The notes under the pieces are model-generated. The model did no database searches, had not been told where the DNA came from, and saw only the letters and a list, made by a program, of their open reading frames with translations. From Corallococcus soli (GTDB lineage: Bacteria; Myxococcota; Myxococcia; Myxococcales; Myxococcaceae): a stretch of DNA of 64,000 nt. Of the stretch, positions 33,701 through 63,667 are shown in pieces. How positions within the stretch are numbered: position 1 is the stretch's first letter; the number at the start of each line of letters is the position of its first letter. The stretch covers positions 186,001-250,000 of the forward strand of contig NZ_JAAIYO010000010.1 of NCBI RefSeq assembly GCF_014930455.1, written 5' to 3'. The translations under genes and the position numbers were made by a program.

Positions 33701-36700
33701 TCCGGCTACGAGGGCCAGCCGCTGATGATGGACGTGTACCAGGGCTCGCGGCGCGTCGAGCACCGCCTGCTGACGGCGGGACAGGGCCGGGCCGTGGTGG
33801 AGATTCCCGTGACGGAGGCCCTGCGCGGCGGCTTCACGGTGGCGCTGTCGCTGGTGCGCGACTGGCAGCACCTGGGCTTCCAGCAGACGGTGGCGGTCCC
33901 CTTCGACGACAAGGAGCTGAGCGTGGAGTTCGCCACGTTCCGCGACACGCTGCGCCCCGGCGCGAAGGAGACCTTCCGCGTGACGGTGAAGGGCCCGAAG
34001 GGCGCGAAGCTGGAGGCGGGGGCCGCGGAGGTGCTGGCGTACATGTACGATCAGTCGTTGGACCTGTTCGGCCCGCACACGCCGCCCCAGGTGGCGCGGC
34101 TGTATCCGCAGCGGTCCACGTCGCTCGACACCCGCTCCTCCGTGAGCTCCAACGGGGGCGACTGGCTCTTCGATGACCTGGGGCGGAGCGCCTCCCTGCA
34201 GGATCCGGAGCCGGATCAGCTGAAGTTCGGAAGCGGGTACGGGCTGGGCGGCCCGGGCTACGGCCGACGTTTCCGGGGGGGCATGACCATGTCCGGGGTC
34301 CACCGCAGGGAGAGCGACAGCGAGGAGGAACGCTCTGCTCCGGGCAGCCCGCCGCCTCCGCCGCCGCCTCCATCCCCTTCCATGGCTCCGCCAGCGGAGG
34401 CGAAGGTCCAGATGAAGCGGTACTCCGTCATCGAGATCAACAAGGAGCCGGAAGCGCCGCAGCCGCTGCGCTCGAACTTCGCGGAGACGGCGTTCTGGAT
34501 TCCGCAGCTCCTGACCGGGCCGGACGGCGCGGCGGTGCTCGAGTTCTCCGTGCCGGATTCGGTGACGGCGTGGAACGTCTGGGTGCACGCCCTCACGCGC
34601 GACCTGAAGGGCGGCTCGGTGCAGCGCACCACCCGCAGCGTGAAGGAGCTGATGGTGCGCCCGTACCTGCCGCGCTTCCTGCGCGAGGGGGACCGCGCGG
34701 AGCTGGAGGTCGTGGTGAACAACGCGGGCGCGGCGACCCAGCAGGGGCAGCTCACGTTCGACATCGTGGATCCGGACACGCAGAAGAGCCTGCTCGCGGA
34801 CTTCGGCGTGAAGACGACGGAGCAGAGCTTCACGGTGGCGGCGGGGAAGGGGACGCACCTGCGCTTCCCCATCACCACCCCGGCGCGCGTGGGCCCGGTG
34901 GCCTTCCGCGTCGTCGCGAAGTCCGGCGCCTTCAGCGACGGCGAGCTGCGCGCCCTGCCGGTGCTTCCGGGGCGCATGCACCTGGCGCAGTCGCGCTTCG
35001 TGACGTTGCGCGACAAGGACCGCAAGACGCTCACGTTCGATGACCTGAAGCGCTCCAACGACCCCACGCGGGTGAACGAGCAGCTCGTCGTCACGGTGGA
35101 CGCGCAGCTCTTCTATTCGGTGCTCCAGGCGCTGCCGTACCTGGTGGACTACCCGTACGAGTGCACGGAGCAGACGCTCAACCGCTTCGTGTCCACGGGC
35201 ATCGTCTCCAGCCTCTACGCGAAGCACCCAGCGGTGGCGAAGATGGCGAAGGCGCTGAGTGAGCGACCCACGCGCTTCGAGACCTGGGACGCGGTGGATC
35301 CGAACCGGAAGATGACGCTGGAGGAGACGCCCTGGCTCAACGAGGCCCGGGGCGGCGACGAGTCCGCGGACAAGCTGCTGCGGGTGTTGGATCCGAAGGT
35401 GGCCCAGGCGGAGCGACTGTCTTCGCTGGAGAAGCTGAAGAAGGCGCAGACGGCGTCCGGTGGCTTCCCGTGGTGGCCGGGAGGGCCGCCCTCGCCGTAC
35501 ATGACCGTCTACATCCTCCACGGCCTGTCCCGCGCGATGGAGCACGGGGTGGCGGTGCCGCCGGAGATGACCGCGCGGGCCTGGGAGTACCTGGCCACGC
35601 AGTTCCGCGAGGACTACGCCAAGACGCTGATGAGGAAGGACCTGGGCTGGGAGTTCCTCACGTTCCTCAACTTCGTGGCGTCGTCGTATCCCGACGCGCG
35701 CTACACGGGCGAGGCGCTCACGGCGGCCGAGCGGAAGCGCATGCTCGACTTCTCCTTCAAGCACTGGAAGAAGCACGCGCCGTTCCTCAAGGGCTACCTG
35801 GCGCTCACGCTGCACCGCGCGAAGCGGACGCAGGACGCGCAGAAGGTCTGGGACAGCGTGATGGACTCCGCGAAGACGACGGAGGAGCTGGGGACGTACT
35901 GGGCGCCGGAGGACCGTAGCTGGCTCTGGTACAACGACACCACGGAGACGCACGCGTTCGCGCTGCGCACGCTGTCGGAGCTGCGCCCCAAGGACCCGCG
36001 CCGCGAGGGGCTGGTGCAGTGGCTGCTGCTGGACAAGAAGCTGGGCCACTGGAAGTCCACGCGCGCCACGGCCGAGGCGCTCTACGCGCTGGTGAACTAC
36101 CTGGAGGCGGAAGGGGCGCTGGGCGTCCGCGAGGAGCTGAAGGTGACGGTGGGGCAGAAGGTCGTGCCCATGGTCTTCTCGCCGGAGGTCTACACGGGGA
36201 AGAAGAACCAGGTGGTGCTCACCGGGCCGGAGGTGAAGCCCGACACGGCGACCACCGTGGTGGAGAAGACGACGCCGGGCTTCGCCTTCGCCTCCGCGAC
36301 GTGGCACTTCTCCACGGAGGAGCTGCCGAAGGAGGAGCGCGGGGACTTCTTCCACGTGTCGCGCCGCTACTTCGTGCGCGTGAGCGAAGGCAACCAGACG
36401 CTGCTGCGTCCCCTGGCGGAAGGCGCGAAGCTGCAGCCCGGTGACGAGGTCGAGGTGCAGCTGTCGCTGCGCACCAAACACGCGGCCGAGTACGTGCACC
36501 TGCGCGACCCGCGCGCCGCGGGCCTGGAGCCGGAGAACGCGGTGTCCCGCCACAAGTGGGACCTGGGCATCGTCTGGTACGAGGAGGTGCGGGACTCTGG
36601 GACGAACTTCTTCTTCGAGGCGCTGCCGGTGGGCGAGTACACGTTCAAGTACCGGCTGCGCGCCAACCTGGCGGGCACCTTCCGCGTGGGGCCCGCGACC

Positions 36701-36775
36701 GTGCAGTCCATGTACGCGCCGGAGTTCACCGCGTACTCCACGGGCACGGTGATCACCGTGGGCAAGGCCCCGTAG
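30737..36775 (+). CDS. Thioester-type alpha-2-macroglobulin family protein
   Basis: A 2,012-residue exported protein; signal peptide at residues 1-30 (ALVALLCLLSFALP, cleavage after ASA). Repeated MG domains include a macroglobulin MG2-like segment (YTDRSVYRPQQKLLWKVV). A low-complexity, Gly/Tyr/Arg- then Pro-rich stretch at about residues 1155-1225 (GSGYGLGGPGYGRRF; PPPPPPPP) sits where the protease bait lies. Downstream are the A2M domain (AFWIPQLLTGPDGAAVLEFSVPD) and the thioester CTEQ at residues 1476-1479. Such proteins trap attacking proteases by covalent linkage. No lipobox, so it may be free in the periplasm, and no penicillin-binding protein 1C gene is adjacent, unlike many bacterial homologues. 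Confidence 0.92.
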   Translation: MSEPSRPRALVALLCLLSFALPHPTPASAQTKAPPTWKAIDALVEDDKVESAAQGAEARLVAAKQKKDAAEWTRALVRTVQLRTRLHGYETAVRFLREQPWPDDARQRATLNLFYAAVLTHYVDAYGYEIGRREQVASSGPVDLKAWTKDQLVAEAQRAQAAVWALRQELGTEPVKVLSEYLQPNTYPDGIRSTLRDAVTYLWVALLERTDLWRPEQEQQVYRLDLGALLAGSPRVDLVDPSVHPLMKVAALLGDLEAWHLAAGRREAALEARLRRYDVLSTSFTDTEDQLRVREHLVAHLKGFRDVPWWSAGQLQLAELEEAVGRRVAAHAAAKAGADAWPKSFGGLRCAAKVTALEAPELSATVMHVDGAGRRSIEVRHRNVAQVHFRAFALDVEAKLAKPGQDMSLIAEGAEVRRLVQTRKPEAAWSTVLPKTSDFQSHRTFVTPPSLKPGVYALVMSVREDFKEKDNKLVSLPMNVSPWAVVTRRVGSGRVEVRVVDGATGAAAPNVEVRLVTPDYQQRRFGIVSHRTDARGELTLEARTREDHMSALMVLGRGRGVMVYPGSVFLYAERAPEARQQTLIYTDRSVYRPQQKLLWKVVSYRSDEGTKRHQVMPDAQVTVSLLDPNGQEVEKREVRTNTFGSVAGEFTLPTGRPLGQWHVRTSPSGYAAVRVEEYKRPTFEVSLKDAPEALRLNRPATFKGEARYFFGLPVTRGAVKWRVSREPVLPPWWFWERIPTTAQLVASGSASVGEDGGFSVAFTPEADERLAKTQGMSWRYRVEADLTDEGGETRSASRAFRLGFVSVEGRVESDQGFVREDLPSAVRLVRSNLDGAPQAGAGRWRLLALKQPARALMPSEEPVDAPPPLEGSAQEHRQWTATPGDALKPRWQQGFDPASTLRRWEDGAEVAQAAVTHGADGVASVKLPALRAGAYRLRYETTDAFGQKALAQHDFVVAGSRAPTGLPGMLMAERSSVRVGEVARLVVASGYEGQPLMMDVYQGSRRVEHRLLTAGQGRAVVEIPVTEALRGGFTVALSLVRDWQHLGFQQTVAVPFDDKELSVEFATFRDTLRPGAKETFRVTVKGPKGAKLEAGAAEVLAYMYDQSLDLFGPHTPPQVARLYPQRSTSLDTRSSVSSNGGDWLFDDLGRSASLQDPEPDQLKFGSGYGLGGPGYGRRFRGGMTMSGVHRRESDSEEERSAPGSPPPPPPPPSPSMAPPAEAKVQMKRYSVIEINKEPEAPQPLRSNFAETAFWIPQLLTGPDGAAVLEFSVPDSVTAWNVWVHALTRDLKGGSVQRTTRSVKELMVRPYLPRFLREGDRAELEVVVNNAGAATQQGQLTFDIVDPDTQKSLLADFGVKTTEQSFTVAAGKGTHLRFPITTPARVGPVAFRVVAKSGAFSDGELRALPVLPGRMHLAQSRFVTLRDKDRKTLTFDDLKRSNDPTRVNEQLVVTVDAQLFYSVLQALPYLVDYPYECTEQTLNRFVSTGIVSSLYAKHPAVAKMAKALSERPTRFETWDAVDPNRKMTLEETPWLNEARGGDESADKLLRVLDPKVAQAERLSSLEKLKKAQTASGGFPWWPGGPPSPYMTVYILHGLSRAMEHGVAVPPEMTARAWEYLATQFREDYAKTLMRKDLGWEFLTFLNFVASSYPDARYTGEALTAAERKRMLDFSFKHWKKHAPFLKGYLALTLHRAKRTQDAQKVWDSVMDSAKTTEELGTYWAPEDRSWLWYNDTTETHAFALRTLSELRPKDPRREGLVQWLLLDKKLGHWKSTRATAEALYALVNYLEAEGALGVREELKVTVGQKVVPMVFSPEVYTGKKNQVVLTGPEVKPDTATTVVEKTTPGFAFASATWHFSTEELPKEERGDFFHVSRRYFVRVSEGNQTLLRPLAEGAKLQPGDEVEVQLSLRTKHAAEYVHLRDPRAAGLEPENAVSRHKWDLGIVWYEEVRDSGTNFFFEALPVGEYTFKYRLRANLAGTFRVGPATVQSMYAPEFTAYSTGTVITVGKAP

Positions 36776-46901: not shown

Positions 46902-47741
46902 CTACTCGACGGTCTTGTACTTGCGGCCCAGGTCGCGGAAGTACTTCACGCCGTTGTCGAGCGAGTTCTCCATCGCGTCCATCAACACCGTGCGGAAGAC
47001 GGCCACGGGTCCCCGGAAGGACTCGTAGTAGCGCTGCCGATCAATGGAGTGGATGACGGCGGGCATGTAGCCGTTGCGCAGCAGGATGAGGTTGCTGCAC
47101 ATGCGCCCCACCTTCCCGCTGTGCTCGGTGAAGGGGAAGATCTGCAGGAACTCATGCTGCACCACCGCCGCCTGCTTGATGGGGTGGAACTCGCGGAACT
47201 CCGCGCTGGCGGTGTGGTCCACGAGCTTCTCCAGCCGGGCCTGGATCTTCGCCGGCTGGGTGATGTCGTGGAAGTAGGTGCGGTGCAGGGGCATGTCCTT
47301 GCGCAGCCCCGCGCGGTCGCGCTCCTTGGCCAGCTCCTTCTCCGTGCGCTCGCGCCGCTCCATGCGCGCGCGCTCGGCGAGCGCCTCCGGCGTGTTGCCG
47401 AGGAAGAGGTCGTGCATCCGCTTGATGGTGGTGAGCGTCAGCGCGGACTGCTTCTTCGCGCCCTGCGCCTCCTCGCGGATGTAGTCCGCGACCGCCTTGT
47501 GGTTGCGGATCTCCAGGACGACCGGAATCATGGACGCCTCGGCGGCGGTGCGTGCCGGGAAGAGCGCGGCCATCAACTCCTGGTGCGTGTACACGACGCC
47601 TTCGAGCGCGGCGTCGTGGTAGATCCACGACATCTCGAACCGGTCGAGGAACTCGCGTGCTGGCTGCTTGTCCTTGTAGATGTCGAGGTACTCGCGCAGC
47701 TGCTCGTTCTTCTCGTCGATGTCTTGATAGCGTTCCTTCAC
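46902..47741 (-). CDS. Fic-fold protein with altered active site
   Basis: A 279-residue Fic-family protein. The fold is supported by the N-terminal segment SWIYHDAALEGV (like the inhibitory xxxEG helix), EIRNHKAVADYI, and the core QHEFLQIFPFTEHSGKVGR (residues 195-213). Aligned without gaps to the Fic motif HPFxDGNGRxGR, the catalytic His is Phe202, Asp is Glu206, Asn is Ser208 and the first Arg is Lys210; only the last Gly-Arg (212-213) is kept. Normal AMP transfer is therefore unlikely. The start is a GTG with AAGGAG upstream. A charged 50-residue insert (RARMERRERTEKELAKERDR) is present. It has its own promoter. Confidence 0.82.
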   Translation of the reverse strand: MKERYQDIDEKNEQLREYLDIYKDKQPAREFLDRFEMSWIYHDAALEGVVYTHQELMAALFPARTAAEASMIPVVLEIRNHKAVADYIREEAQGAKKQSALTLTTIKRMHDLFLGNTPEALAERARMERRERTEKELAKERDRAGLRKDMPLHRTYFHDITQPAKIQARLEKLVDHTASAEFREFHPIKQAAVVQHEFLQIFPFTEHSGKVGRMCSNLILLRNGYMPAVIHSIDRQRYYESFRGPVAVFRTVLMDAMENSLDNGVKYFRDLGRKYKTVE

Positions 47742-51869: not shown

Positions 51870-54800
51870 CTACTTGTCGAGCTCGTCGACGAGCGCCGTC
51901 CAGTCGTCCTCGCCCTCGGGGGCGGTGGGAAGCTGCATCACCATGGTGCGCTCCGGAGCCTCGTCGTCCTCCGCCAGGGCCTGGGCGGGCGCGGCGGCGG
52001 GCTTCTTCGCGGCCTGCTTGGCGGCGGCCTTCGCCGGGGGCTTGGCGGCGGCGGGGATGACGGGGTTCGCCTGGGCCGTCACGGCCAGGTGTTCGTCCTC
52101 GGAGGGCTTCTTGGCGGGGGCGGCGGCGGCCGGGGCAGGGGACTTGCTCTTGTAGCGGGCCAGCTCCAGCTCGGCGACCTTGAGCGCCTTGCTCTTCTCC
52201 TGCACGGACGTCTGGAGGCGGGCGACCTCCTGGGCCTTGATGGCCTCGCGGCGCTCCAGCTCCGCCTTCTGCTTGGCGTTGAGGTCGTCCAGCTCCTTGA
52301 GCTGACGCGCCTCCAGGTCCTTGCGCTCCTTCTGCGCGGTGGCGAGACGGGCGGCGGACTCGTTGGCCTTGGCTTCGGCGGCGGTGACGCGGGCGGTGAG
52401 CTCCTTCTCCGCGCGGCTCCGGGCGCTCGTGGCGTTCTCCAGCGCCAGCTCCAGGTCCTGGGCCTTCTTGGTGCGGGCCTGGAGCTGGGCCTGGGCGTCC
52501 TTGAGCTTCGCGTCCGTGTCGGCCGCGGCCTTCTGGGCGTCCTGGCCGAGCTGCGCGATGGTCTGCTCCGCCTTCGCGAGCCTCGCGGCCAGCTCGTCGG
52601 CCTGCTTCTTCGCGGCGGCCTGGGCCTGCTGGGCCTGCTGGGCCTGGGCTTGAGCCTGGACCTGGGCCTGCTGGAGCTGACCGGCGAGGCCGTCACGCTC
52701 GCTGGCGAGCTTCTGCTGGGACTGACCGGCCTGCTGGAGCTGGGCGTCCCGGTCGGCGATGGCCTTGCGCGCCCCGTCCAGGTCCGCGCTCACGGCGTTG
52801 AGCTGCTGGCCCAGCGCGTCCGCCTGCTTCTTCGCTTCGGCGGCCTGGGTCTGCAGCTGGCCTTCGAGCGCCTTCACCTGGTCGGTGCGGGTGGCGACCT
52901 CGCGGTTGAGCACCTCCGCCTGACGCATCTTCTCCTGCGTCACGTGGGTGAGCTTGCGCAGCGTGTCCGACAGCTCCTTGCCCTTGGTGTCGACCTCGTT
53001 CTGGAGCAGCTCCTCGCGACGCTGGGACTCGTGCGTGAGCGTCTGGAGGCGGTCATCCAGGTCGTGCCGCGCGTCCTCGGTCTGCGCGAGCGTGGAGGAC
53101 AGCTGCGTGACCTCCGCCACGCGGGCGCCCAGCTCGTGCTTGGTGACGATGAGCTGTTCGGCCAGCTCCTCGCCGTTCGCCTGCGAGTCCGCGAGCTGGC
53201 GCTCCAGCTCCGCCTGGGTGGCGGCGGCCTGCTGGCGCGTCTGCGCGTGGGCGTGCTCCTCCTTCGCCAGGGTGTCGCGCGTGTCGGTGAGCTGGCCCTG
53301 GGTGTCCGCCAGCTGCTGCGACGTGGCGTTCAGCTCCTGCGTCAGCCCGTCGCGCTCGCCGGTGAGGGCGGCGATCTGCGCGGAGGTCTCCTGCGCGAGC
53401 GTCGCGTGCGCGCCGCGCTCGGCCTCATACAGGCCCTGCGTCTCGGACAGGTCCGCGCGCAGCTGGCCAATCTGGCCGGTGAGGTCCTGCTCCAGCGAAT
53501 CCTTGGCCTCGCCGAGCGCCTGCAGCTCCGCGATGCGCGTGTCGCGCTCCTGCGTGGTGCGGGCGAGGAGACCGTTGGTCTCCTGGAGGATGTCGCGCGT
53601 TTCGTTCAGCTCCGCGTCCAGCTCGTCGCGGTGCGTGGTCGTCTTGGCCAGCTCCGCGCGCGTCGACTCCAGGGCCTCCTGGGTCTGCGTGAGCGTCTGG
53701 CTGGTGGCCTCCAGCTCGCCGCGCGTCTCCGCGAGCGTGCCCTCGGTGCTGGAGAGCGTGCCCTGCGTGTCCGCGAGGGTCGCCTCCGTGCGCGCCAGCG
53801 TGCCCTGCGTGTCCGCGAGGGTGGCTTCGGTGCGCGCCAGGGTCTGGCTGGTGGCCTCCAGTTCGCCCTGGGTGGAGGCGAGCGTCTCCTCCGTCTGGGC
53901 AAGCCGGGTCTGCGTGTCGGACAGGGTCTGGCTGGTGGCCTCCAGCTCGCCGCGCGTCTCCGCCAGCGTGCCTTCGGTGCTGGCCAGCGTGGCCTGCGTG
54001 TCGGACAGGGTCTGGCTGGTGGCCTCCAGCTCGCCGCGCGTGGTGGAGAGCGTCTCCTCCGTCTGCGCGAGCCGGGACTGGGTGTCCGTCAGGGTCTGGC
54101 TGGTGGCCTCCAGCTCGCCGCGCGTCTCCGCGAGCGTGCCTTCGGTGCTGGAGAGCGTGCCCTGCGTGTCCGCGAGGGTGGCCTCCGTGCGCGCCAGCGT
54201 GTCCTGCGTCTTCGCGAGGGTGTCCTCGGTGGTCGCCAGCGTCTGGCTGGTGGCCTCCAGCTCGCCGCGGGTGGAGGCGAGGGTCTCCTCGGTCTGCGTC
54301 AGGCGCGTCTGCGTCTCGGAGAGCTGCTGGCTGGTGGCCTCCAGCTCACCGCGTGTCTCCGCGAGCGTGCCCTCCGTGGTGGAGAGCGTCGTCTGCGTCT
54401 CGGAGAGCTGCTGGCTGGTGGCCTCCAGTTCGCCGCGCGTCTCCGCGAGGGTGGCTTCGGTGCTGGAGAGGGTGGCCTGCGTCTCCGTGAGCTGCTGGCT
54501 CGTCGCCTCCAGGTTCCCGGTCAGCTCGGAGATGCGCGAGTCACGCTCGGCCACGTCCGACTGCAGGCCCTCGATGCTGCTGTCGCGCTGGGCGACGGTG
54601 TCTTCCAGCGACGCGACGCGCGCGGAGAGCTGCTCGCCCTGCTGCTGGGCGGCGTCCAACTGCTCGCTGAGCGCCTGGATCTGGCCCTTGAGGTCCGCCT
54701 CCAGGGCGTCCTTCGCCGCGCGCAGGTCCTCCAGTTGGCTGGTGAGGTCCTGCTCCAGCGCGTCCTTGGCCTGCTGGAGCGCCTGGAGTTCGGCGGTCAG

Positions 54801-56459
54801 CTCCGACTCGCGGTCCTCCAGGTGCGTCTTGACGGCTTCGACTTCGCCTTCCAGCTCACCGATGCGCTCGCGGTGCTGCTGGATGGTGGCGTTGAGCTCC
54901 GCCTCGCTGTTCTCGTTGCGGGCGATGGTCTCCTGGAGCTCGCGGTCCAGCGAGGCGAGCTTCGCGTCGCGCTCCTCCACGCGCTGGGTGAGGTCCGCTT
55001 CCTGGGCGTCCTTGTCCAGCCGCAGCTGGTCGCGCTCGCCGGTGACGCGCGCGATGTCGGACTCCAGGTCCGCCACCTGCTGCGTGAGGCGCTGCTCCAG
55101 CGCGGCGCGCTCGGCGTTGAGGCGTTCAATCTCCGCGTCGGAGCGGCTGGCGTGCTCCTCGGCGGTGGTGGACCGGGCCTCCAGGCCGCGCACGGTGGCG
55201 TCGCGCTCCTGCTCGGTCTGGGTCAGCCGCTCCTGGAGGGCCTGGATCTCACCGTCCAGCTCGGCGTAGCGCTGGTCGCGCTCGCTGACGGTGCGGCCCA
55301 GCTCCGCCTCGAACTGGTCGCCGCGCTCGCGCAACTGGAGGATGTCCGCCTCGTTGGCGCGGACGGTGTCCTGGAGCTTCTGCTCCTTGACCTCGAACTC
55401 CAGCGTGACGACGCCGAGGTGCTTCTCCAGCTTGTCGAACTCGTTGCGCCAGCCTTCCAGGTCGGCGCCACGGCGCGACAGCTCCTCGTCGCGGAGGTTG
55501 ACCTCCTTGCGCAGGACGTTGATGTCCTTTTCCTTGGAGGCGACGACCTCGATGAGGTCCTTCTCCGAGGAGAACTTCTGCAGGAGCAGGTCGTCCACGG
55601 TGGCGCCGTGCTCGCGCTCCTTCTGGACGATGGACTGCTGGGCGTCGTTGAAGCGCCTGAGCAGGTCATCCACCTGCATCTTCAGGCCCTGCAGCTCCAC
55701 GTCCTTCTCATGGAGCCGGTCCTCGACGGAGAGCAGCTCCCGCTCGCGGACGCTCCAGATTTCGGACAGGCGCGCGAGCTGCGCTTCGCGTGTCTTCAGC
55801 TCGTCCCGGAGGATTTGAATCTTCCCCTCGGGCGTGCCCATCAGCTCACGGCGCGGGGGCGGGCGCTTCAACTGGCGCGACTCCGCCAGCAGCTCCGCCT
55901 TGCGGTCCGCGATGGAGGAGAAGGCGCGGTCCATGAAGGACTTGTCCTCGTCCGTCATGGCGCTGCGGCGCTCGCGCTTGGGCAGCTTGGGCGGGGCGCC
56001 GGTGCGCACGCCGGGCATGGGCGGCGGGGCCTCGCGCGGGGCGCCGGAGAGGGCGGCGTCCAGGTCCGCGTCCGTCTCGTCGGTGCCGGGCGGGACGATG
56101 CCCGCGCTCATCGAGGCGAGCTCCCCCATCTCGAAGGGGATGACGAGGTAGCCGTCCGCGGCGGCGGGCGTCTCACGGTGTTTGTTGAGACCCTCCACTC
56201 CCGAGTCGGAGGACAGCAGCAGGACCTTGAGGTTCTGGCCCCACTTGCCCTTCTTGATCTGACCACAGAGGGCGAAGCCGGACTGGTCCGGCAGCTCCGC
56301 GCGCACGACGACCAGGTCGGGTCGGCGTTTCTCCAGCTCCCGCTGCGCATCGGACGCAGTGGTAGCCATGGCCGTGTTGTAGCCCGCGCTCTTGAGCACG
56401 GAGGCCATGCTGAGTGCGAAGTCGTTCTGGCTTTCGACGATGAGGACGCGACGCTCCAT
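51870..56459 (-). CDS. aglZ: AglZ-like gliding motility protein
   Basis: A 1,529-residue protein. Residues 1-120 form a receiver-like domain (MERRVLIVESQNDFALSMASVLK) whose phospho-acceptor site reads VVVRAELPDQSGF, without the usual Asp, so it is a pseudo-receiver. From about residue 190 to 1430 it is almost continuous coiled coil, with a tandem-repeat block (separate entry). The tail is Ala/Lys/Pro-rich and ends in an acidic motif (RTMVMQLP...DDWTALVDELDK). This plan is that of M. xanthus AglZ, a scaffold of the adventurous gliding machinery working with MglA and the Frz pathway; the M. xanthus protein is somewhat shorter. ATG 56459 with GAAGGG upstream. Confidence 0.9.
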   Translation of the reverse strand: MERRVLIVESQNDFALSMASVLKSAGYNTAMATTASDAQRELEKRRPDLVVVRAELPDQSGFALCGQIKKGKWGQNLKVLLLSSDSGVEGLNKHRETPAAADGYLVIPFEMGELASMSAGIVPPGTDETDADLDAALSGAPREAPPPMPGVRTGAPPKLPKRERRSAMTDEDKSFMDRAFSSIADRKAELLAESRQLKRPPPRRELMGTPEGKIQILRDELKTREAQLARLSEIWSVRERELLSVEDRLHEKDVELQGLKMQVDDLLRRFNDAQQSIVQKEREHGATVDDLLLQKFSSEKDLIEVVASKEKDINVLRKEVNLRDEELSRRGADLEGWRNEFDKLEKHLGVVTLEFEVKEQKLQDTVRANEADILQLRERGDQFEAELGRTVSERDQRYAELDGEIQALQERLTQTEQERDATVRGLEARSTTAEEHASRSDAEIERLNAERAALEQRLTQQVADLESDIARVTGERDQLRLDKDAQEADLTQRVEERDAKLASLDRELQETIARNENSEAELNATIQQHRERIGELEGEVEAVKTHLEDRESELTAELQALQQAKDALEQDLTSQLEDLRAAKDALEADLKGQIQALSEQLDAAQQQGEQLSARVASLEDTVAQRDSSIEGLQSDVAERDSRISELTGNLEATSQQLTETQATLSSTEATLAETRGELEATSQQLSETQTTLSTTEGTLAETRGELEATSQQLSETQTRLTQTEETLASTRGELEATSQTLATTEDTLAKTQDTLARTEATLADTQGTLSSTEGTLAETRGELEATSQTLTDTQSRLAQTEETLSTTRGELEATSQTLSDTQATLASTEGTLAETRGELEATSQTLSDTQTRLAQTEETLASTQGELEATSQTLARTEATLADTQGTLARTEATLADTQGTLSSTEGTLAETRGELEATSQTLTQTQEALESTRAELAKTTTHRDELDAELNETRDILQETNGLLARTTQERDTRIAELQALGEAKDSLEQDLTGQIGQLRADLSETQGLYEAERGAHATLAQETSAQIAALTGERDGLTQELNATSQQLADTQGQLTDTRDTLAKEEHAHAQTRQQAAATQAELERQLADSQANGEELAEQLIVTKHELGARVAEVTQLSSTLAQTEDARHDLDDRLQTLTHESQRREELLQNEVDTKGKELSDTLRKLTHVTQEKMRQAEVLNREVATRTDQVKALEGQLQTQAAEAKKQADALGQQLNAVSADLDGARKAIADRDAQLQQAGQSQQKLASERDGLAGQLQQAQVQAQAQAQQAQQAQAAAKKQADELAARLAKAEQTIAQLGQDAQKAAADTDAKLKDAQAQLQARTKKAQDLELALENATSARSRAEKELTARVTAAEAKANESAARLATAQKERKDLEARQLKELDDLNAKQKAELERREAIKAQEVARLQTSVQEKSKALKVAELELARYKSKSPAPAAAAPAKKPSEDEHLAVTAQANPVIPAAAKPPAKAAAKQAAKKPAAAPAQALAEDDEAPERTMVMQLPTAPEGEDDWTALVDELDK
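53680..54525 (-). repeat. 28-residue tandem repeats in the AglZ coiled coil
   Basis: About nine units built on TLAETRGELEATSQ-x-L-x-x-TQ, 28 residues (84 bases, four heptads) each, with two places where a 14-residue unit TLARTEATLADTQG is inserted. All steps keep the heptad phase, so the block can grow or shrink without breaking the coiled coil. Length polymorphism between strains is expected. Confidence 0.85.
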
Positions 56460-56558
56460 GAAGCCCTTCACCCAGCAAAAAGTGCAGTGAAAACCGCCAC
56501 ATCCTATCGGGCGGGCGCAAGGCTTGGGAAGTTTCCGAGCAGTGCTCGGTCGCCTGCC

Positions 56559-59465
56559 TCACGAGTTCTTGTTGCGAACCGCACCCTGTCCAACAGGGGG
56601 GACCGTCCCCGGGGGGGCGGCGCTCTCCGGATCCCTGCCGGGGAAGTTGGTGGGCGGGGTGTGACGGGCGAACTGGGCGCCCTCGGGGGGACAATACCCG
56701 TGCGCCAGCTGGGCGAACCACGGGTTGAGGGTGGAGCCGGGCGGCGCCGGTGGGGGCTCCGGCGGCTCCTCCTTCACGGGCGCGTCCTCCGCGTCCTCCA
56801 GGGCGAGCGAGTCCGCGTCGTGGACCTCGTCGCTGCTGATCTCCTCCGGCTCGTCCAGCGCCGCGCTGGCGTTGGAGGGGGTGTGGCTGCCCTCGTCGTC
56901 CAGGGACTCGGCCTCGTCGGCGGCGATCTCCTCCGGCTCGTCGTCCGGGGCGGAGGGCGAGGAGGGCCTCAGCATGGGCGGCGTCGAGCGGGCCTGTGCC
57001 TCCTGGGACCCGGACGGTACCAGCCGGGGCGGCGGCCCCTGACGGGGCACGGGCGGCGGTGACACGGCGCGGGGCGGCAGCTGCGGGGGCCGTTCCGCGT
57101 CCGCCGTGAGGCCACCGCCGCGGATGGGCGGCTTGTCCGCGTCTGACACGAGGCCACCGCCGCGGATGGGCGGCTTGTCCGCTTCCAGGAGCACGGGCGG
57201 GCGGGAGGGAGCGGGACGGCCTGGATCAGCGACGAGGCCGCCACGGATGGGCGGTTTTTCCGCGTCGGCCATGGAAGGAAGGGGAGGGGTGCGGGGAGGT
57301 TCGACGGCGGAGGGGGCGTCCGGTTCGGCGTTGGCGCCCGGGCGCGAGGACTGGGCGCGCCCGGCGTTCGTGCTCCGCCCCGCGTTCATCAGGGAGCGCA
57401 TGGGCACGATGGGCGTGGGCGCCGGCGGCTCCGAGAAGTCCTCCACCAGCACCGAGGCCCGGCGGACGATGGGCGTCGGGGCGGGAGACTCTTCCTCCCG
57501 CATGACGCCGGAGCGGCGGACGATGGGGGTGGGCGCCCGCTCCGCGTCGTCGGACGCGGGCGACGTGGGCCGGCGCACGATGGGGGTGGCCGCGGGCGCT
57601 TCGTCCTCCGACGGGGCGGGCCGGCGGACGATGGGGGTGGGGGCCGGCGCTTCGCCCTCATCCTCCAAGGTCGAGCGGCGCACGACGGGCGTCGGTCCGG
57701 AGTGGGCCGCGTCCTCGCCCTGCCCACGCGGGGCGGTGTCGGCGGAGGCGGTGTCCCGGGCGGCGGCTTCCGGCTCCGCGTCCCGCGAGGAGAGCGCCCG
57801 GGCGGAGTAGCTCGTCAGCAGCTCGGTCGGCGCGCCCGGCTCACCCCGGCGTCCTCCCAGGGGCTCCGGTTCCGCCTTCACCGGGAGGGCGGTCCGGGCG
57901 GTGTCGCCCCCGCTGTCGACCGACGGGGCTTCGCTCCGCGCGGGCTCCCGGGAGGGCTCCGCCGCGGGGCCGCGCTCCCGCAGCGGCAGGCCCAGCACCA
58001 TGGGGACCTCGTCGGGCCGCATGTCGGGTTCGGTCTTCACCAGCCGCGTGTCCATCCCCTCGTCCAGGGCCATGCCCATCACCAGGGGCAGGTCCTCGGG
58101 GGCGTCCTTGCTCGCCACCGGCTCCGGGGCGGCCTCTTCCGGCGCGGCGGCGGGCGCGGCGGGCTTCGCGGGGGCCTTGGGGACGGGCGCGGGCTTCGAC
58201 GCCTCCGGCATGCCCAGGTTCGCGAGGCGGTTGGTGGGCGTGCCCGTCATCGTGACGTCGGGCGGCTCGTTGGCGGTGCCCACGGGCAGGTGGACGCGGT
58301 TCTTCAGGAGCGAATCATAGAGGTCCAGCAGCTGGCCCCGGATGAGCCCCGCGTCCAGGACCTTCTCCGCGTACTCGCGGCCGGCGCGTCCCAGCGCCAT
58401 GCGGCGGGGCACGTCGCGCGCCAGCTCCACGATGCGCTCGGAGAGCGCGCGGGCGTCCCCGGGCGGGAAGAAGACGGCCGCGTCCTGCGGGATGAGTTCC
58501 CGGGTGACGGGCAGGTCCGCGGCGATCACCGGCCGGCCGGAGGCCATGTACTCGGACACCTTGGCCAGCGGTCCGCCCTGGGTCCGGTTGCGCTCCGAGT
58601 CGTCAAGGGGCAGCACGCCCACGTCCGCCAGGGCCAGGACCTTGAAGAGGTCGTCGTGGACCACGGGCGGCTGGAAGTCGACCTTGTCCTTGAGTCCCAG
58701 GTCCTTGACCAGGTCGTCCAGGTGGGGCTTCCAGTCGGGGTGGTGCGCGCCCACGAGCGTCAGGCGCACGTCCACCTGCTGCGCGGCGAGCGCGGTGGCC
58801 CTCAGCAGGGTGGGCAGGCCCTGCCAGCCGACGTGGCTGCCCAGGTACATCATCCTCAGGGGCGTGCCGTCCGGGGCGCCGAGCACCTCCGGGTCGTACG
58901 GCTTCAGGTCCACCGGCGCGCGCAGCATGCGCAGCTGGTCCTCGGCCGCGCCCAACCCTTGGATGTAGCCCTTCGTCGTCTGGGAGCCCGTCACGACCAG
59001 GTCCGCGTTCATCAGGCAGAAGAGCTCCTGCCGGCGGATCTTCGACAGGAAGCGGCGGTCCCCGTCCGTCTGGGGGTGGGTGTAGCGCAGCTCCTGCGAG
59101 GGGAAGGTCTGGGCCTCATAGATGAGGCGGTAGCCGTAGTCCGCCTTCAGCTCGCAGAGCGCGTAGCCGCCGAAGGGGTCCGTGAAGTGGGCAAGGGCGT
59201 AGTCCTCGCTCTCCAGCTGCCGACGCACGGCCCGCTCGAAGGACTGGATGCGCGAGGCCAGGTCCCCGGAGCCTACCGGCACCCGGAGCAGCCGGGCGCC
59301 CTGGTACTTCTCGATATGGGAGTGGTCGGGGGTCTTCGCCGACAGCACCACCACGGAGAAGCGATCAGGCAACGCCTTCAGATACTCGGTCAGTCGGCGT
59401 GAGGAGCCAGACGGGCCGGGGATGACGTCGAAGCTGCACAGGAGAAGTCTGGGCAGGTCACTCAA
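56559..59465 (-). CDS. GT4 glycosyltransferase with long repeat-rich tail
   Basis: A 968-residue protein. Residues 1-400 are a GT-B fold, family GT4 glycosyltransferase: N-terminal LLLCSFDVIPGPSGSSRRL, nucleotide-sugar half with LRMMYLGSHVGWQG and VGVLPLDDSERN...GGPLAKVSEYMASGRPVIA. Residues 410-968 have no fold: Pro/Ala-rich, with six (P/A)TP(I/V)V(R) repeats, three to four KPPIRGG(G)L repeats, two DEPEEI-x-x-DE acidic repeats and a conserved-looking end (NPWFAQLAHGYCPPEGAQF). The start is a TTG at 59465, with no strong ribosome site, and may be wrong. The gene is just upstream of aglZ on the same strand. Confidence 0.85.
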   Translation of the reverse strand: MSDLPRLLLCSFDVIPGPSGSSRRLTEYLKALPDRFSVVVLSAKTPDHSHIEKYQGARLLRVPVGSGDLASRIQSFERAVRRQLESEDYALAHFTDPFGGYALCELKADYGYRLIYEAQTFPSQELRYTHPQTDGDRRFLSKIRRQELFCLMNADLVVTGSQTTKGYIQGLGAAEDQLRMLRAPVDLKPYDPEVLGAPDGTPLRMMYLGSHVGWQGLPTLLRATALAAQQVDVRLTLVGAHHPDWKPHLDDLVKDLGLKDKVDFQPPVVHDDLFKVLALADVGVLPLDDSERNRTQGGPLAKVSEYMASGRPVIAADLPVTRELIPQDAAVFFPPGDARALSERIVELARDVPRRMALGRAGREYAEKVLDAGLIRGQLLDLYDSLLKNRVHLPVGTANEPPDVTMTGTPTNRLANLGMPEASKPAPVPKAPAKPAAPAAAPEEAAPEPVASKDAPEDLPLVMGMALDEGMDTRLVKTEPDMRPDEVPMVLGLPLRERGPAAEPSREPARSEAPSVDSGGDTARTALPVKAEPEPLGGRRGEPGAPTELLTSYSARALSSRDAEPEAAARDTASADTAPRGQGEDAAHSGPTPVVRRSTLEDEGEAPAPTPIVRRPAPSEDEAPAATPIVRRPTSPASDDAERAPTPIVRRSGVMREEESPAPTPIVRRASVLVEDFSEPPAPTPIVPMRSLMNAGRSTNAGRAQSSRPGANAEPDAPSAVEPPRTPPLPSMADAEKPPIRGGLVADPGRPAPSRPPVLLEADKPPIRGGGLVSDADKPPIRGGGLTADAERPPQLPPRAVSPPPVPRQGPPPRLVPSGSQEAQARSTPPMLRPSSPSAPDDEPEEIAADEAESLDDEGSHTPSNASAALDEPEEISSDEVHDADSLALEDAEDAPVKEEPPEPPPAPPGSTLNPWFAQLAHGYCPPEGAQFARHTPPTNFPGRDPESAAPPGTVPPVGQGAVRNKNS
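57084..57700 (-). repeat. TPIVRR and KPPIRGGGL repeat blocks in the GT4 protein tail
   Basis: Six copies of (P/A)TP(I/V)V(R)R spaced 14-20 residues apart (57395-57700) and three to four copies of ADKPPIRGGGLVSD (57084-57275). The latter includes a 33-base perfect direct repeat, at 57108-57140 and 57150-57182, period 42 bases. Confidence 0.85.
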
Positions 59466-59505
59466 GCGTTCGCAGGATACTTGGACAACGAGAAGGTGTC
59501 ATCGG

Positions 59506-59555
59506 CCGTGACGGAAGAAGAACGGGGTCCGCAGACAAACACATCCCGTGACGGA
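59506..59555. repeat. Paired CCGTGACGGA boxes in a divergent promoter region
   Basis: CCGTGACGGA occurs at 59506-59515 and 59546-59555, 40 bases apart (about four helical turns), between the GT4 and DUF4912 genes. Each contains the near-palindrome CCGT-G-ACGG. Could be regulator sites; a TTGACC-N17-TAACGA promoter-like pair is at 59560-59588. Confidence 0.4.
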
Positions 59556-59600
59556 GGCGTTGACCCCCTGTATGCCGCGACGTAACGAGGCGAGGTGTCC

Positions 59601-62051
59601 ATGGATGAGCGGAAGGGCGTCACCTTGAGCTACCTGCGGGAGCTGGCCCGGAAATACCTCCGGGAGGGGTCCGGCACGTCCCGGGGACGTGAGTTCGTCA
59701 CCGCGCTGGCCGAGCGGGTGCCCGCGCTGGGGCGGCTCGCGCGCCTGGCGGGTATCAGCGTATCCCAGCGCGGCTCCGGTGACGTGGGCGGTGAAGAGCG
59801 CAAGCTGGATTCCGGCCCGGTGCGAGGCGCGCCGCCCGAATCCGTCCCGCTGCCGGCTCCGGACCTGTCCGGGGCGCAGGAAGCAGAGCCACGAGAACTT
59901 TCCTCGGAACCCATCACCCAGCCTTCGGGCGAGCCCCGGACGCGGCCGGCCCAGGTGGTGACGTTCCCCGCCCGCGCGAAGTCGCGCAGGGAGCCGGACG
60001 ACGAGGACACGCTGCCCATGTCGCCGGAGGCGCCCACGCCGCGCCCGTCGAGCGCGCCGAAGACGGACGCGGCGCCCCAAGCCGTCGCCGGGGCGGTCCC
60101 CGCGCCCGCGAGCGAGCCCCCGCATGCGGCCGAGCCCCTGATGGAGGGGTTCTTCGTGACGAAGATCGCGGGGCAGGCCGAAGCGCGCCGCCATCACCTG
60201 TTGGAGGAGCAGGCGCCGCGCCTGCCACCCGCGGACACGACGCCCGAGCAGCAGGAGCACCTGGGCGTGCTGCCCCTGGACTACCAGGACGACGCGATGG
60301 TGCTGCTCGCGCGCGACCCGCACACGCTCTTCGTCCTCTGGGACTTCAGTGACGCCAGCCGGAAGCGGGCGCTCGACGGGCTGCCGTCGCCGCGCGCCGT
60401 GTTGAAGGTGTTCGACGGGGAGGGCGTGTCGCGGGAGGTGGACTTCGCGCTGGAGTCGCGCAGCTACTACCTGCAGGGCCTGTCCCCCGGGCGGACGTAC
60501 CGGGTGGAGGCGCACTTCGTCGGCGCGGATGGCCGGTCGCGCCGCATCGGTCATTCGTCGAACCGGGCGACGCTGCCTCCGGCGGGCCCGTCCTCGGACA
60601 CGTCCATCCGGTTCCTGCGCATGCCGCCCCCGCCGGTCGTGCACCGCGCGCGCGCGGAGGACGCGCCGGTGGTGCCCACGCGCGCCGCGGAGCCGCAGGA
60701 GCGCGAGTACGTGACGTGGCGCCGGGTGTCGCTGCCGGGCAGCGCGGGCATGCGCGACGTGCCGGAGGTGCACCGCGAGCGCATTGAGACGCCGCGAGCC
60801 CCGGGCGCTTCGGATCAGCGCTATGGGGCGGGGGCCCATCTCGAAACTGGGCCCCGGGCGCCGGGCGCTTCGGACCAGCGCTATGAGGAGGCCGCGAGCG
60901 GAGGGCAGGGCCAGGTCCTGGCTCCGCCCCGTGCACCCGGGGCTTCGGATCAGCGCTACCTGTCCGTGGAGCGCGCATCGGGGGCTTCGGATCAGCGGTA
61001 CGGGCAGGCGGGCAGCGCGGTGGGCCACCGCTACCTGGAGGTGCCTCGCGCTCCGGGGGCTTCGGAACAGCGGTATGGCCAGTCCCTGCTGCCGGGGGGT
61101 GTGTCGGAGTACCGCTACCTGGAGGTGTCTTCGCGTGCCGCCGGGGCTTCGGATCAGCGTTACGTGGCAGGGGGAGGGCAGGGTGCGTCCGACCAGAAGT
61201 ACATCGACGTGCCGCGAGCCCCGGGCGCTTCGGACCAGCGCTACCTGACGGTGCCGTCCGTGCCAGGGGCGTCGGATCAGAAGTACCTGACGGTGCCTCG
61301 CGCGGCTGGCGCTTCGGACCAGCGGTATCTGACCGTGGAGCGTGCGTCGGGCGCGTCGGACCAGCAGTACCTGACGGTGCCCCGCGCGGCTGGGGCTTCG
61401 GACCAGCGGTATCTGTCGGTGGAGCGCGCGTCGGGCGCATCGGATCAGCAGTACCTGACGGTGCCGCGTGCCGCTGGAGCTTCGGAGCAGCGACATCTGT
61501 CGGCGGAGCGTGCGTCGGGCGCGTCGGAGCAGCAGCCCGCGATGGCGCCTCGCACGGCCGGTACCTCGGAGACGCGCTACCTGGGCGACACCGTGCTTTC
61601 CCCTCGGGCCCCCGTGGCTCCGCGACCGGAGCCAGTCCGTGGCGCGAGCGCGCCTTTCTCCTCGACGGACTCCCGCGCGCAAGCGGTGTCGTTACCCGCG
61701 TCCACGCGCGTGGCGGAGCCCGAAGCCCCCACGGACCCCTGGGCCCTGAGCGTGGCGCGCGGGCCGTCTGCTTCGGAACAGCGAGCCCTCGACAAGGCGA
61801 GGGAAGCCGCCGAGGAGGCGCGAAGGGCTCCACCGGCTTCCGCGCCCCCGGGTGTGCCGGCCCCTCCGTCGGAGACGCCCGTGGCAGCGAAGGCCGCGCC
61901 CGCGGTGGACACGGCTCCTTCGTCCCAGAACGCGCCGGTGCCGGCCGCCGTCTCCACGCCGCCGGCCACCGCGCCTTCGAAGCCCGCGTCCCCGGACGCC
62001 AAATCCTCCCACTCCAAGTCCCGGCGCAATTCGCGCCGTGGACGTTCGTGA
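59601..62051 (+). CDS. DUF4912 protein with GASDQRY repeats
   Basis: An 816-residue protein without signal peptide or membrane helix. Residues 1-60 are a helical, basic segment (LSYLRELARKYLREGSG, GRLARLAGISVSQRG). Residues about 230-330 form a DUF4912 domain (LPLDYQDDAMVLLARDPHTLFVLWDFSD ... RTYRVEAHFVGADG). Residues about 395-660 are a tandem array of GAS(D/E)Q(R/K/Q)Y units (separate entry). The tail is Ala/Pro-rich and ends in a basic Ser/Arg stretch (SHSKSRRNSRRGRS). Position before a GH57 enzyme suggests a role in polysaccharide handling. ATG 59601 with GAGG upstream; a GTG two codons earlier is possible. Confidence 0.85.
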   Translation: MDERKGVTLSYLRELARKYLREGSGTSRGREFVTALAERVPALGRLARLAGISVSQRGSGDVGGEERKLDSGPVRGAPPESVPLPAPDLSGAQEAEPRELSSEPITQPSGEPRTRPAQVVTFPARAKSRREPDDEDTLPMSPEAPTPRPSSAPKTDAAPQAVAGAVPAPASEPPHAAEPLMEGFFVTKIAGQAEARRHHLLEEQAPRLPPADTTPEQQEHLGVLPLDYQDDAMVLLARDPHTLFVLWDFSDASRKRALDGLPSPRAVLKVFDGEGVSREVDFALESRSYYLQGLSPGRTYRVEAHFVGADGRSRRIGHSSNRATLPPAGPSSDTSIRFLRMPPPPVVHRARAEDAPVVPTRAAEPQEREYVTWRRVSLPGSAGMRDVPEVHRERIETPRAPGASDQRYGAGAHLETGPRAPGASDQRYEEAASGGQGQVLAPPRAPGASDQRYLSVERASGASDQRYGQAGSAVGHRYLEVPRAPGASEQRYGQSLLPGGVSEYRYLEVSSRAAGASDQRYVAGGGQGASDQKYIDVPRAPGASDQRYLTVPSVPGASDQKYLTVPRAAGASDQRYLTVERASGASDQQYLTVPRAAGASDQRYLSVERASGASDQQYLTVPRAAGASEQRHLSAERASGASEQQPAMAPRTAGTSETRYLGDTVLSPRAPVAPRPEPVRGASAPFSSTDSRAQAVSLPASTRVAEPEAPTDPWALSVARGPSASEQRALDKAREAAEEARRAPPASAPPGVPAPPSETPVAAKAAPAVDTAPSSQNAPVPAAVSTPPATAPSKPASPDAKSSHSKSRRNSRRGRS
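60792..61590 (+). repeat. About 16 GASDQ(R/K/Q)Y tandem repeats
   Basis: Units such as APGASDQRYLTVPR and ASGASDQQYLTVER, mostly 14-15 residues long in the second half and longer and irregular in the first half. Consensus: (A/S)GAS(D/E)Q(R/Q/K)Y-L-(T/S)-V-(P/E)-R. Late units decay to GASEQ and GTSETRY. No cysteine or hydrophobic run; every unit offers Ser, Tyr and Arg. Confidence 0.9.
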
Positions 62052-62077
62052 ACCCGCACGGCCTCCTCGACTGACCT

Positions 62078-63667
62078 ATGAGCCTGGGCTCCCTCGCGCT
62101 GGTCCTCCACGCACATCTCCCCTTCGTCCGTCACCCCGAGTACGAGGACTTCCTCGAGGAGGACTGGCTCTACGAGGCCATCTCCGAGACGTACCTGCCG
62201 CTGCTGCGCGTGTTCGACACGCTGGCCGAGGAGCGCGTCCCCTTCCGGGTGACGATGACCCTCTCGCCCACGCTCGTCACGATGCTCAACGACGACCTGT
62301 TGCGTGAGCGCTACGCGCGGCGCCTGGACCTGCTCTGCGAGCTGGGGGCCCGCGAGGTGCACCGCACCCGTGACGACGCCACCTTCCAGCCGCTGGCCGT
62401 CTTCCACCGCGACCACTTCGAATCGCTGCGCCTCGCGTACAACAACCACTACCGGCGCGACCTCGTCGCCGCGTTCCGCAGGCTCCAGGACGCAGGCCAC
62501 CTGGAGATCCTCACCTGCAACGCCACCCACGGCTTCCTGCCGCTGATGCAGCAGACGCCGGAGGCCGTACGCGCCCAGGTGACGGTGGCGGCGAACCACT
62601 ACCGCCAGAACTTCGGCCGCGACCCCGCAGGCATCTGGCTGGCCGAGTGCGGCTACTACCCGGGCCTGGAGCGCGTCCTCTCCGCCGAGCGGATCCGCTA
62701 CTTCTTCGTCGACACGCACGCGCTCACCGACGCCACGCCCCGGCCCCTGCACGGGCCCTACGCCCCCATCTTCACCGAGCCGGGCGTCGCCGCCTTCGCG
62801 CGCGACCCGGAGAGCAGCCAGCAGGTGTGGAGCACGGAGCACGGCTACCCGGGCGACCCCGTGTACCGGGAGTTCTACCGGGACATCGGCTGGGACCTGG
62901 ACCAGGACTACATCCGGCCCTTCATCCAGCCCACCGGCGACCGCAAGAACACCGGCTTCAAGTACTTCCGCATCACCGGCAAGACGAACGACAAGCAGCC
63001 GTATGATCCGGCCGCCGCCCGCGAGCGCGCGGGGGTGCACGCCGGCAACTTCCTCTTCAACCGGCAGCGCCAGTTCGAATACCTGGCCTCGCGCATGGGC
63101 GGCCGCAAGCCCGTGGTCGTCGCGCCCTACGACGCGGAGCTCTTCGGCCACTGGTGGTTCGAAGGCCCCCACTTCATTGAGGCCCTCATCCGTCAGGCCG
63201 CGCGCGAGCCCCGGCACTTCGACCTCATCAGCCCGCTGGACGACCTGCGCGAGCACCCGGAGAACCAGGTCGCCACGCCGCCCCTGTCCTCCTGGGGCGC
63301 GGGGGGCTACGCGAACATGTGGCTGGACGGGAGCAACGACTGGATCTACCGCCACCTGAACCACTGCGCGAAGCAGATGGTGGAGCTGGCCCGGGACTTC
63401 CCGGACGCGTCGTCCCTGCCGCGCCGGGCCCTCAACCAGGCCGCACGCGAGCTGCTGCTGGCCCAGTCCTCCGACTGGGCCTTCATCATGAAGACCGGCA
63501 CCATGGTGGACTACGCCGTGCGTCGGACGAAGGAGCACCTGCAGCGCTTCCTGCGCCTGCACGACCAGGTGCGCTCAGGCACCATCGACGAGGGGTGGCT
63601 GTCCCACGTGGAGGGCCGCGACAACCTGTTCCCCGAACTGGACTACCGGGTGTACCGGCCCGGTTGA
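62078..63667 (+). CDS. GH57 1,4-alpha-glucan branching enzyme
   Basis: A 529-residue glycoside hydrolase family 57 protein of the DUF1957 branching-enzyme type. N-terminal LVLHAHLPFVRHPEYEDFLEE is typical; the nucleophile Glu lies in GIWLAECGYYPG and the acid/base Asp in VVAPYDAELFGHWWFEGP; a C-terminal helical domain includes SDWAFIMKTGTMVDYAVRR. It would introduce alpha-1,6 branches into glycogen or another glucan in the cytoplasm. The ATG is 26 bases after the DUF4912 gene, so the two are probably one operon. Confidence 0.93.
   Translation: MSLGSLALVLHAHLPFVRHPEYEDFLEEDWLYEAISETYLPLLRVFDTLAEERVPFRVTMTLSPTLVTMLNDDLLRERYARRLDLLCELGAREVHRTRDDATFQPLAVFHRDHFESLRLAYNNHYRRDLVAAFRRLQDAGHLEILTCNATHGFLPLMQQTPEAVRAQVTVAANHYRQNFGRDPAGIWLAECGYYPGLERVLSAERIRYFFVDTHALTDATPRPLHGPYAPIFTEPGVAAFARDPESSQQVWSTEHGYPGDPVYREFYRDIGWDLDQDYIRPFIQPTGDRKNTGFKYFRITGKTNDKQPYDPAAARERAGVHAGNFLFNRQRQFEYLASRMGGRKPVVVAPYDAELFGHWWFEGPHFIEALIRQAAREPRHFDLISPLDDLREHPENQVATPPLSSWGAGGYANMWLDGSNDWIYRHLNHCAKQMVELARDFPDASSLPRRALNQAARELLLAQSSDWAFIMKTGTMVDYAVRRTKEHLQRFLRLHDQVRSGTIDEGWLSHVEGRDNLFPELDYRVYRPG

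Follow-up and report, generated by a model that had tools for sequence, protein, structure and literature searches.

Locus and gene identities

The window analysed here is a stretch of 64,000 nucleotides from the 9.4-Mb genome of Corallococcus soli (contig NZ_JAAIYO010000010.1, positions 186,001 to 250,000); positions below are those of the window. Four neighbouring genes were studied, in the order aglZ (- strand), a GT4 glycosyltransferase gene (-), a DUF4912 gene (+) and a GH57 gene (+). They form two conserved and separable modules, GT4-aglZ and DUF4912-GH57, and the DUF4912 protein is tied to an AmyC-type GH57 enzyme.

The positions given for the four genes in an earlier note, which had been made from the letters alone, were confirmed: 51870-56471 (-) for aglZ, 56559-59465 (-) for the GT4 gene, 59595-62051 (+) for the DUF4912 gene and 62078-63667 (+) for the GH57 gene. 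All four reading frames are open, with a GC content at third codon positions of 0.86-0.96. The likely start of aglZ is an ATG at 56459; the GT4 gene starts with TTG, and the DUF4912 gene with GTG at 59595 or ATG at 59601. The GT4 gene precedes aglZ on the same strand with a gap of 99 nt. The GT4 and DUF4912 genes are divergent and 129 bp apart (measured to the DUF4912 GTG), and 26 bp lie between DUF4912 and GH57.

The gene identities proposed in the note also held. The N-terminus of AglZ was assigned to PF00072 above the cut-off (residues 9-120, E 3.9e-12), the GT4 protein to family GT4 by Pfam domains above their cut-offs (PF13692, E 1.5e-19), and the DUF4912 protein to PF16258 with 66.6 bits against a gathering score of 29.4 (E 3.1e-18). 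The GH57 enzyme carries a BE_C domain and is of the AmyC (short-loop branching) type.

In Myxococcus xanthus, AglZ is given as MXAN_2991 (PMC4546325) and MXAN_2994 as a GH57 protein (PMC12802240), assignments which fit the same block in that genome. MXAN_2992 and MXAN_2993, lying between the two, would then be the GT4 and DUF4912 genes.

AglZ comprises 1533 residues. Its receiver-like domain (56112-56447, -) has an arginine at the phospho-Asp position (DLVVVRAELPD) and thus belongs to the receiver-like N-termini without phospho-Asp; the best match in the PDB was the FrzS receiver 2gkg. SMC- and filament-like profiles were also matched and suggest a long coiled-coil-like part. M. xanthus AglZ, compared by description, has in common with this protein the receiver-like N-terminus without phospho-Asp and probably the long coiled-coil-like part, and no difference between the two was noted. 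Its coiled coil is reported to span 1076 residues, against 235 in FrzS, and the protein is described as binding MglA and being required for gliding. From family, length and position in the same block, AglZ of the window is likely the orthologue of MXAN_2991. An acidic C-terminal peptide, DDWTALVDELDK (51870-51920), is kept in many relatives and is a candidate binding end.

The spacer between the GT4 gene and aglZ (56460-56558, -) contains the blocks TAGGAT, CGGTTTTCACTGCACTTTTT and one resembling CCAACCGAGC, which are conserved in relatives. These blocks suggest that aglZ perhaps has its own promoter and leader, for which the spacer would provide the sequence.

Conservation of gene order

A total of 117 genomes of the order Myxococcales was surveyed with the AglZ N-terminus, the GT4 domain (E<=1e-30), DUF4912 and GH57 as queries. 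Not counted were glycosyltransferase paralogues of about 30% identity located elsewhere, GH57 paralogues with values near 1e-41 to 1e-44 and, where a match was split, most of the second pieces; the GT4 match in G116 (35%) was retained because it adjoins AglZ. Families of the order are designated f1, f3 and so on, genomes G and loci L. Matches were obtained for DUF4912 in 100 genomes, for GH57 in 102, for the AglZ N-terminus in 92 and for GT4 in 73, some of them being only paralogues; some AglZ matches outside f1 cover the receiver part only and may be FrzS-like. Family f1 (68 genomes) yielded AglZ in 65, GT4 in 63, DUF4912 in 55 and GH57 in 56. G043 is without three of the genes because its contig ends there.

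GT4 and AglZ were same-strand neighbours in 55 of the 68 genomes with both, lay on different contigs in the other 13, and in none were apart on one contig. They are neighbours even in three genomes of 2.1-2.7 Mb (G022, G085 and G108), which gave no match to DUF4912-GH57, the glucan pair. DUF4912 and GH57 were neighbours in 98 of 100 genomes (different contigs in two), and GT4 and DUF4912 were adjacent and divergent in 55 of 58 (different contigs in three). Among the 79 genomes with AglZ and DUF4912, the two were found within 12 kb in 47, on different contigs in 25 and far apart in seven, all of families f5 and f6. These two families, in which AglZ and DUF4912 were far apart or on different contigs, yielded no GT4 at E<=1e-30. 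In G083, which also gave no GT4, AglZ and DUF4912 are neighbours. All four genes lie on one contig in the f3 genomes G002 and G010. Separation of the four genes in most relatives, named in the earlier note as speaking against a common unit, was thus not observed in f1, nor in these two f3 genomes; it was observed in f5 and f6.

Separability of the two pairs

GH57 was missing at threshold in 12 f1 genomes, of which 11 kept GT4 and 10 AglZ; the 11 with GT4 gave no DUF4912 match at the thresholds used either. Conversely, other parts of the order and other phyla have the glucan pair but no GT4. Nine of the 11 pair-less f1 genomes were read (all except G090 and G102). In eight of these the gene divergent from GT4 was a TPR gene, coding for about 670 residues where complete. 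G076, scored as without the glucan pair, has a diverged GH57 (35% identity) preceded by a gene with a similar N-terminus. The TPR gene was also found directly downstream of GH57 in L065, L069, L072, L083 (family f3) and L231; it was not found within 15-16 kb past the end of GH57 in C. soli, G064 and G073 (L233-L235). A TPR gene next to GT4 in pair-less genomes and downstream of GH57 elsewhere indicates that the glucan pair comes and goes as a unit, and the simplest reading of these arrangements is that DUF4912-GH57 would have been lost in one piece.

The TPR gene divergent from GT4 in several lineages also favours a purely historical neighbourhood, in which the shared promoter region would imply no common function and GT4 would be an envelope glycosyltransferase unrelated to gliding. 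The GT4 homologues examined outside the order, which do not stand beside AglZ, fit this as well. Against it, none of the 68 genomes had GT4 and AglZ apart on a single contig, and the two are neighbours in reduced genomes too; we consider this explanation rather unlikely, though it has to be taken seriously.

The GT4 enzyme and its tail

The GT-B catalytic domain of the GT4 protein comprises residues 1-390 (58296-59465, -), as judged from Pfam and from an AlphaFold2 model of the orthologue L066, which is confident to about residue 390 and of low confidence thereafter, as disorder would give. PDB sequence matches included Tll1590, a D-inositol-3-phosphate glycosyltransferase, a mannosyltransferase and WaaG, all of which we take to be GT4/GT-B enzymes. 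NCBIfam matches were partial and all under cut-off. The protein shares GT4 domains and such partial matches with the WcaI- and EpsE-type glycosyltransferases; unlike these, it stays below the curated cut-offs (48.4 vs 276 bits for WcaI and 48.3 vs 400 bits for EpsE) and has an additional tail of about 580 residues with a conserved end. A degenerate GT4 was considered since the phosphate site seems to be without the basic residues that GT4 enzymes usually have there; the idea was dropped because these residues are also missing from other GT4 subgroups.

The GT4 family includes alpha-glucan enzymes, and the gene is adjacent and divergent to the glucan pair. GT4 might accordingly be pictured as an alpha-glucan synthase feeding GH57 in a glycogen route, with AglZ as a passenger. 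This is very improbable in view of the 11 f1 genomes in which GT4 persists without a GH57 match, of families f5-f7, which mostly have GH57 and yield no GT4 at E<=1e-30, and of the sub-cut-off NCBIfam matches, several of which are exopolysaccharide-type transferases.

The low-complexity tail is hypervariable. Between relatives its length varies from roughly 45 to roughly 1300 residues, and its repeats change between genera; only some islands and the C-terminal end persist. At this end lies the conserved peptide PWFAQLAHGYCPPEGAQFARHTPPTNFPGRD (56631-56723, -). The strict pattern WFAQLxHGYCPPE was present in 26 of 40 GT4 sequences, some of the other 14 being cut by contig ends; looser variants were seen in L074, L081, L083, L084 and L107, and all five further f1 loci (L228-L232) had the peptide. 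When the C. soli genome was searched with the peptide, only GT4 matched well (E 4.8e-19; next 0.17), so it was dropped as a candidate genome-wide motif. Docking of the peptide on its own glycosyltransferase domain was likewise discarded, model confidence being low there, as was an LPPR island in the tail, which was found in part of the family only. A link through a GYF domain of GltJ was also dropped, and no paper joining GltJ, GYF and AglZ was found in the literature searched. No discussion of this GT4 was found in the literature searched, most subscription journals being outside its coverage. The gene agnA (gltC, MXAN_2541) lies elsewhere in the M. xanthus genome, as given in PMC3169522.

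Divergent promoter-like region

Two opposed promoter-like pairs were recognized between GT4 and DUF4912. On the GT4 strand, ATGACA and TATCCT are 17 nt apart (59474-59502, -), the -10 element ending 8 nt before the TTG. On the other strand, TTGACC and TAACGA are also separated by 17 nt (59560-59588, +). Of 27 intergenic sequences, 17, all related to each other, were aligned, and the elements were picked by eye. The near-duplicates L050, L054, L056, L061, L064 and L086 were left out, and also L073, L083, L084 and L108, the last three because GT4 and DUF4912 are 202-586 bp apart there and the start of GT4 was unplaceable.

GTTGACC was present in all 17 aligned f1 sequences, with a TAA box 17-18 nt on. 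On the GT4 strand all 17 had an AGGATA/AGAATA box at a distance of 7-10 nt from the start of GT4, and 15 had a TGTCAT/C box 17-18 nt beyond it. Of 26 relatives, 21 use TTG as the start codon of GT4, as in the window (59463-59465), L059 uses GTG and L073 ATG, three being unplaceable. With -10-like boxes so close to the start codons, both the GT4 and the DUF4912 mRNA would be almost without leader.

Repeats

About 16 GASDQRY repeats had been noticed in the DUF4912 protein. In agreement with this, 17 G[ATV]S[DE] units were counted at residues 404-659 (60804-61580, +), eight of them exactly GASDQRY, with an exact spacing of 14 residues from residue 530 on. Tandem Repeats Finder (TRF) reported 355 bp of this array (61181-61535) as 14-residue GASDQ units, and in aglZ an array of 834 bp with periods of 42/84 bp (53679-54512, -). 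The earlier note had credited three of the genes with long tandem arrays; only these two were found, the GT4 tail having 2.2 copies of 42 bp (57094-57186, 93 bp) and consisting for the rest of low-complexity sequence in which motifs are scattered. A 42-bp period (14 residues) occurs in all three arrays (53679-61535); the units look unrelated, and the agreement may be chance.

As background, TRF arrays with a score >=100 were counted in 20 author-chosen 20-kb stretches (400 kb) of the C. soli genome. Twelve arrays were found, distributed over seven stretches with five in one, compared with three in 7.9 kb here. The clustering of repeats, described before as unusual, exceeds this background; one background stretch also shows clustering, however, and period-42 repeats are expected in a coiled coil.

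Exact GASDQ was found 8-13 times in four DUF4912 proteins of the same genus and 0-6 times in the other relatives compared, several of which carry GSSEQ units instead. The tail motif was examined in 56 DUF4912 tails from named loci (Myxococcota L124, L137 and L139 omitted) against 500 shuffles, with patterns picked after the tails had been read. G[AS]S[DE] was found in 5 of 56 tails (shuffled mean 0.7, max 4) and G.SS in 18 of 56 (mean 3.6, max 12), with 24 G.SS hits in all (mean 3.7, max 12). Since the short GASDQ form is present in DUF4912 tails of other phyla, the repeats were assigned to the glucan pair and not to gliding; the array would have arisen by local expansion of a motif long present in DUF4912 tails. 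Conserved docking tracks formed by the repeat tails, as had been envisaged, were rejected because tail length and repeats of GT4 vary between genera and only islands and the end persist.

These results also bear on the proposal of the note that the four genes encode a single unit for the assembly of a polysaccharide, linked to gliding, with the repeats as docking tracks, presumably for AglZ. The four-gene order kept in f1 and in G002 and G010 and the opposed promoter-like elements conserved in f1 agree with it, and a GT4-AglZ link is still plausible. It is weakened because the pairs are separable and are kept or lost independently, because DUF4912-GH57 and the short tail motif are present in many phyla, and because the GT4 repeats differ by genus. 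The proposal is borne out only in part, and a single unit is improbable.

The DUF4912 protein and the GH57 enzyme

The DUF4912 domain (60282-60599, +) was modelled by AlphaFold2 as a fibronectin type III-like fold with a core confidence (pLDDT) of about 97. The best Foldseek E-value was 4.5e-5, and alignment with VIA-align gave Z 9.9 and a root mean square deviation of 3.0 over 90 residues. An N-terminal Rho_N domain (PF07498) was matched below the cut-off of 24.9 bits in five of eight relatives (13.2-18.4 bits); for the protein of the window no such match was listed. With the DUF4912 family (PF16258) the protein shares a domain scoring over the cut-off and a gene position upstream of an AmyC-type GH57. 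It differs by its long GASDQ array, and the Rho_N-like stretch of its relatives is below cut-off. In the literature searched, the term DUF4912 turned up in a single paper, on cotton.

The GH57 enzyme has the GH57 catalytic residues, the cysteine of conserved sequence region 3 (CSR-3), BE_C and the short loop that mark the AmyC type. It is 51% identical to AmyC of Thermotoga maritima (TM1438, 2b5d), and shares with it the short loop, the catalytic Glu/Asp and the WLAECGY cysteine; the Tyr in the loop is replaced by His. The significance of loop and cysteine was taken from PMC6616209, where AmyC is described as a branching enzyme whose hydrolysis is comparatively high (up to 30%). Branching activity is predicted for the enzyme of the window.

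Of at least 586 confirmed stretches, the best 80 named AmyC-type GH57 loci, from many phyla, were compared. DUF4912 was located directly upstream on the same strand in 59 and downstream in none; of the 21 loci without it, six have less than 900 bases upstream. On a Campylobacterales contig (L177, 2055-4010), a GT5 glycogen synthase (GlgA) is fused in frame to DUF4912, with GH57 directly after and a partial 4-alpha-glucanotransferase-type gene and a ROK/phosphorylase-like gene nearby. Proximity labelling with EpsW-miniTurbo enriched MXAN_2994 in the wild type of M. xanthus, as stated in PMC12802240.

Other genes observed were a GH13/CBM48 protein gene adjoining aglZ on the opposite strand at one locus only (L075, 11195-13663) and, within the window, genes for a Fic/DOC-domain protein close to the cluster (46902-47741) and for a large alpha-2-macroglobulin-type protein of 2012 residues (30737-36775).

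Interpretation

The locus is best explained by two separately inherited modules placed back to back, the GT4 gene upstream of aglZ and DUF4912 with the AmyC-type GH57, a reading to which, including the roles proposed below, a probability of roughly 55% was given. DUF4912 would be a non-catalytic partner holding the branching enzyme to glucan or to other glycogen enzymes, and the GASDQ array would render it multivalent. GT4 would produce a glycan near sites marked by AglZ; its tail would serve as a flexible tether whose last approximately 31 conserved residues may bind AglZ or an Agl/Glt protein. Co-expression of the two pairs could result from their shared intergenic region. The gene neighbourhoods make a coupling between GT4 and AglZ a good and plausible hypothesis.

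Several results weigh against parts of this reading. A GT4 without tail adjoins AglZ in G022, G085, G108 and G116, so that tail and peptide are unnecessary for the linkage, and the pLDDT of the peptide is just 44-56 or so in the model of L066. At 11 loci outside the order with distant GT4 homologues, none had the peptide in the last 60 residues and no BLAST match to AglZ was obtained in the stretches read. G009 (f9) carries GT4 on one contig and AglZ in the middle of another, and the GT4-DUF4912 gap of f3 (202-586 bp) is not compact. On the side of the glucan pair, a looser tail pattern, [GS][ASG]S[DE], was no more frequent than chance would give, with 6 hits against a mean of 2.7 and a maximum of 9 in the shuffles, and all nine cyanobacterial GH57 loci among the best 80 were without a DUF4912 match upstream. 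The EpsW paper reports no known role of MXAN_2994 in exopolysaccharide and leaves it out of the neighbours described as phosphorylation-dependent (PMC12802240).

Five of the 11 loci outside the order (L218, L219, L220, L223 and L225) have proteins of about 464-501 residues with weak AglZ-profile matches (E 4e-10 to 9e-6), about 4-6 kb from the GT4 homologue.

A bolder extension of the two-module reading is that the gliding machinery has its own glycan enzyme. AglZ or a nearby Agl/Glt protein would recruit GT4 through the terminal peptide of its hypervariable tether, so that a glycan, perhaps slime, would be made where adhesions form; in parallel, the GASDQ array would turn DUF4912 into a multivalent scaffold for GH57. 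In this full form the idea is speculative and quite improbable.

A GT4 gene travelling with aglZ in much of the order offers a handle on a possible coupling of gliding and glycan synthesis. The DUF4912 family gains a context as a partner of branching enzymes of the AmyC type and, in one case, as part of a fusion with a glycogen synthase.

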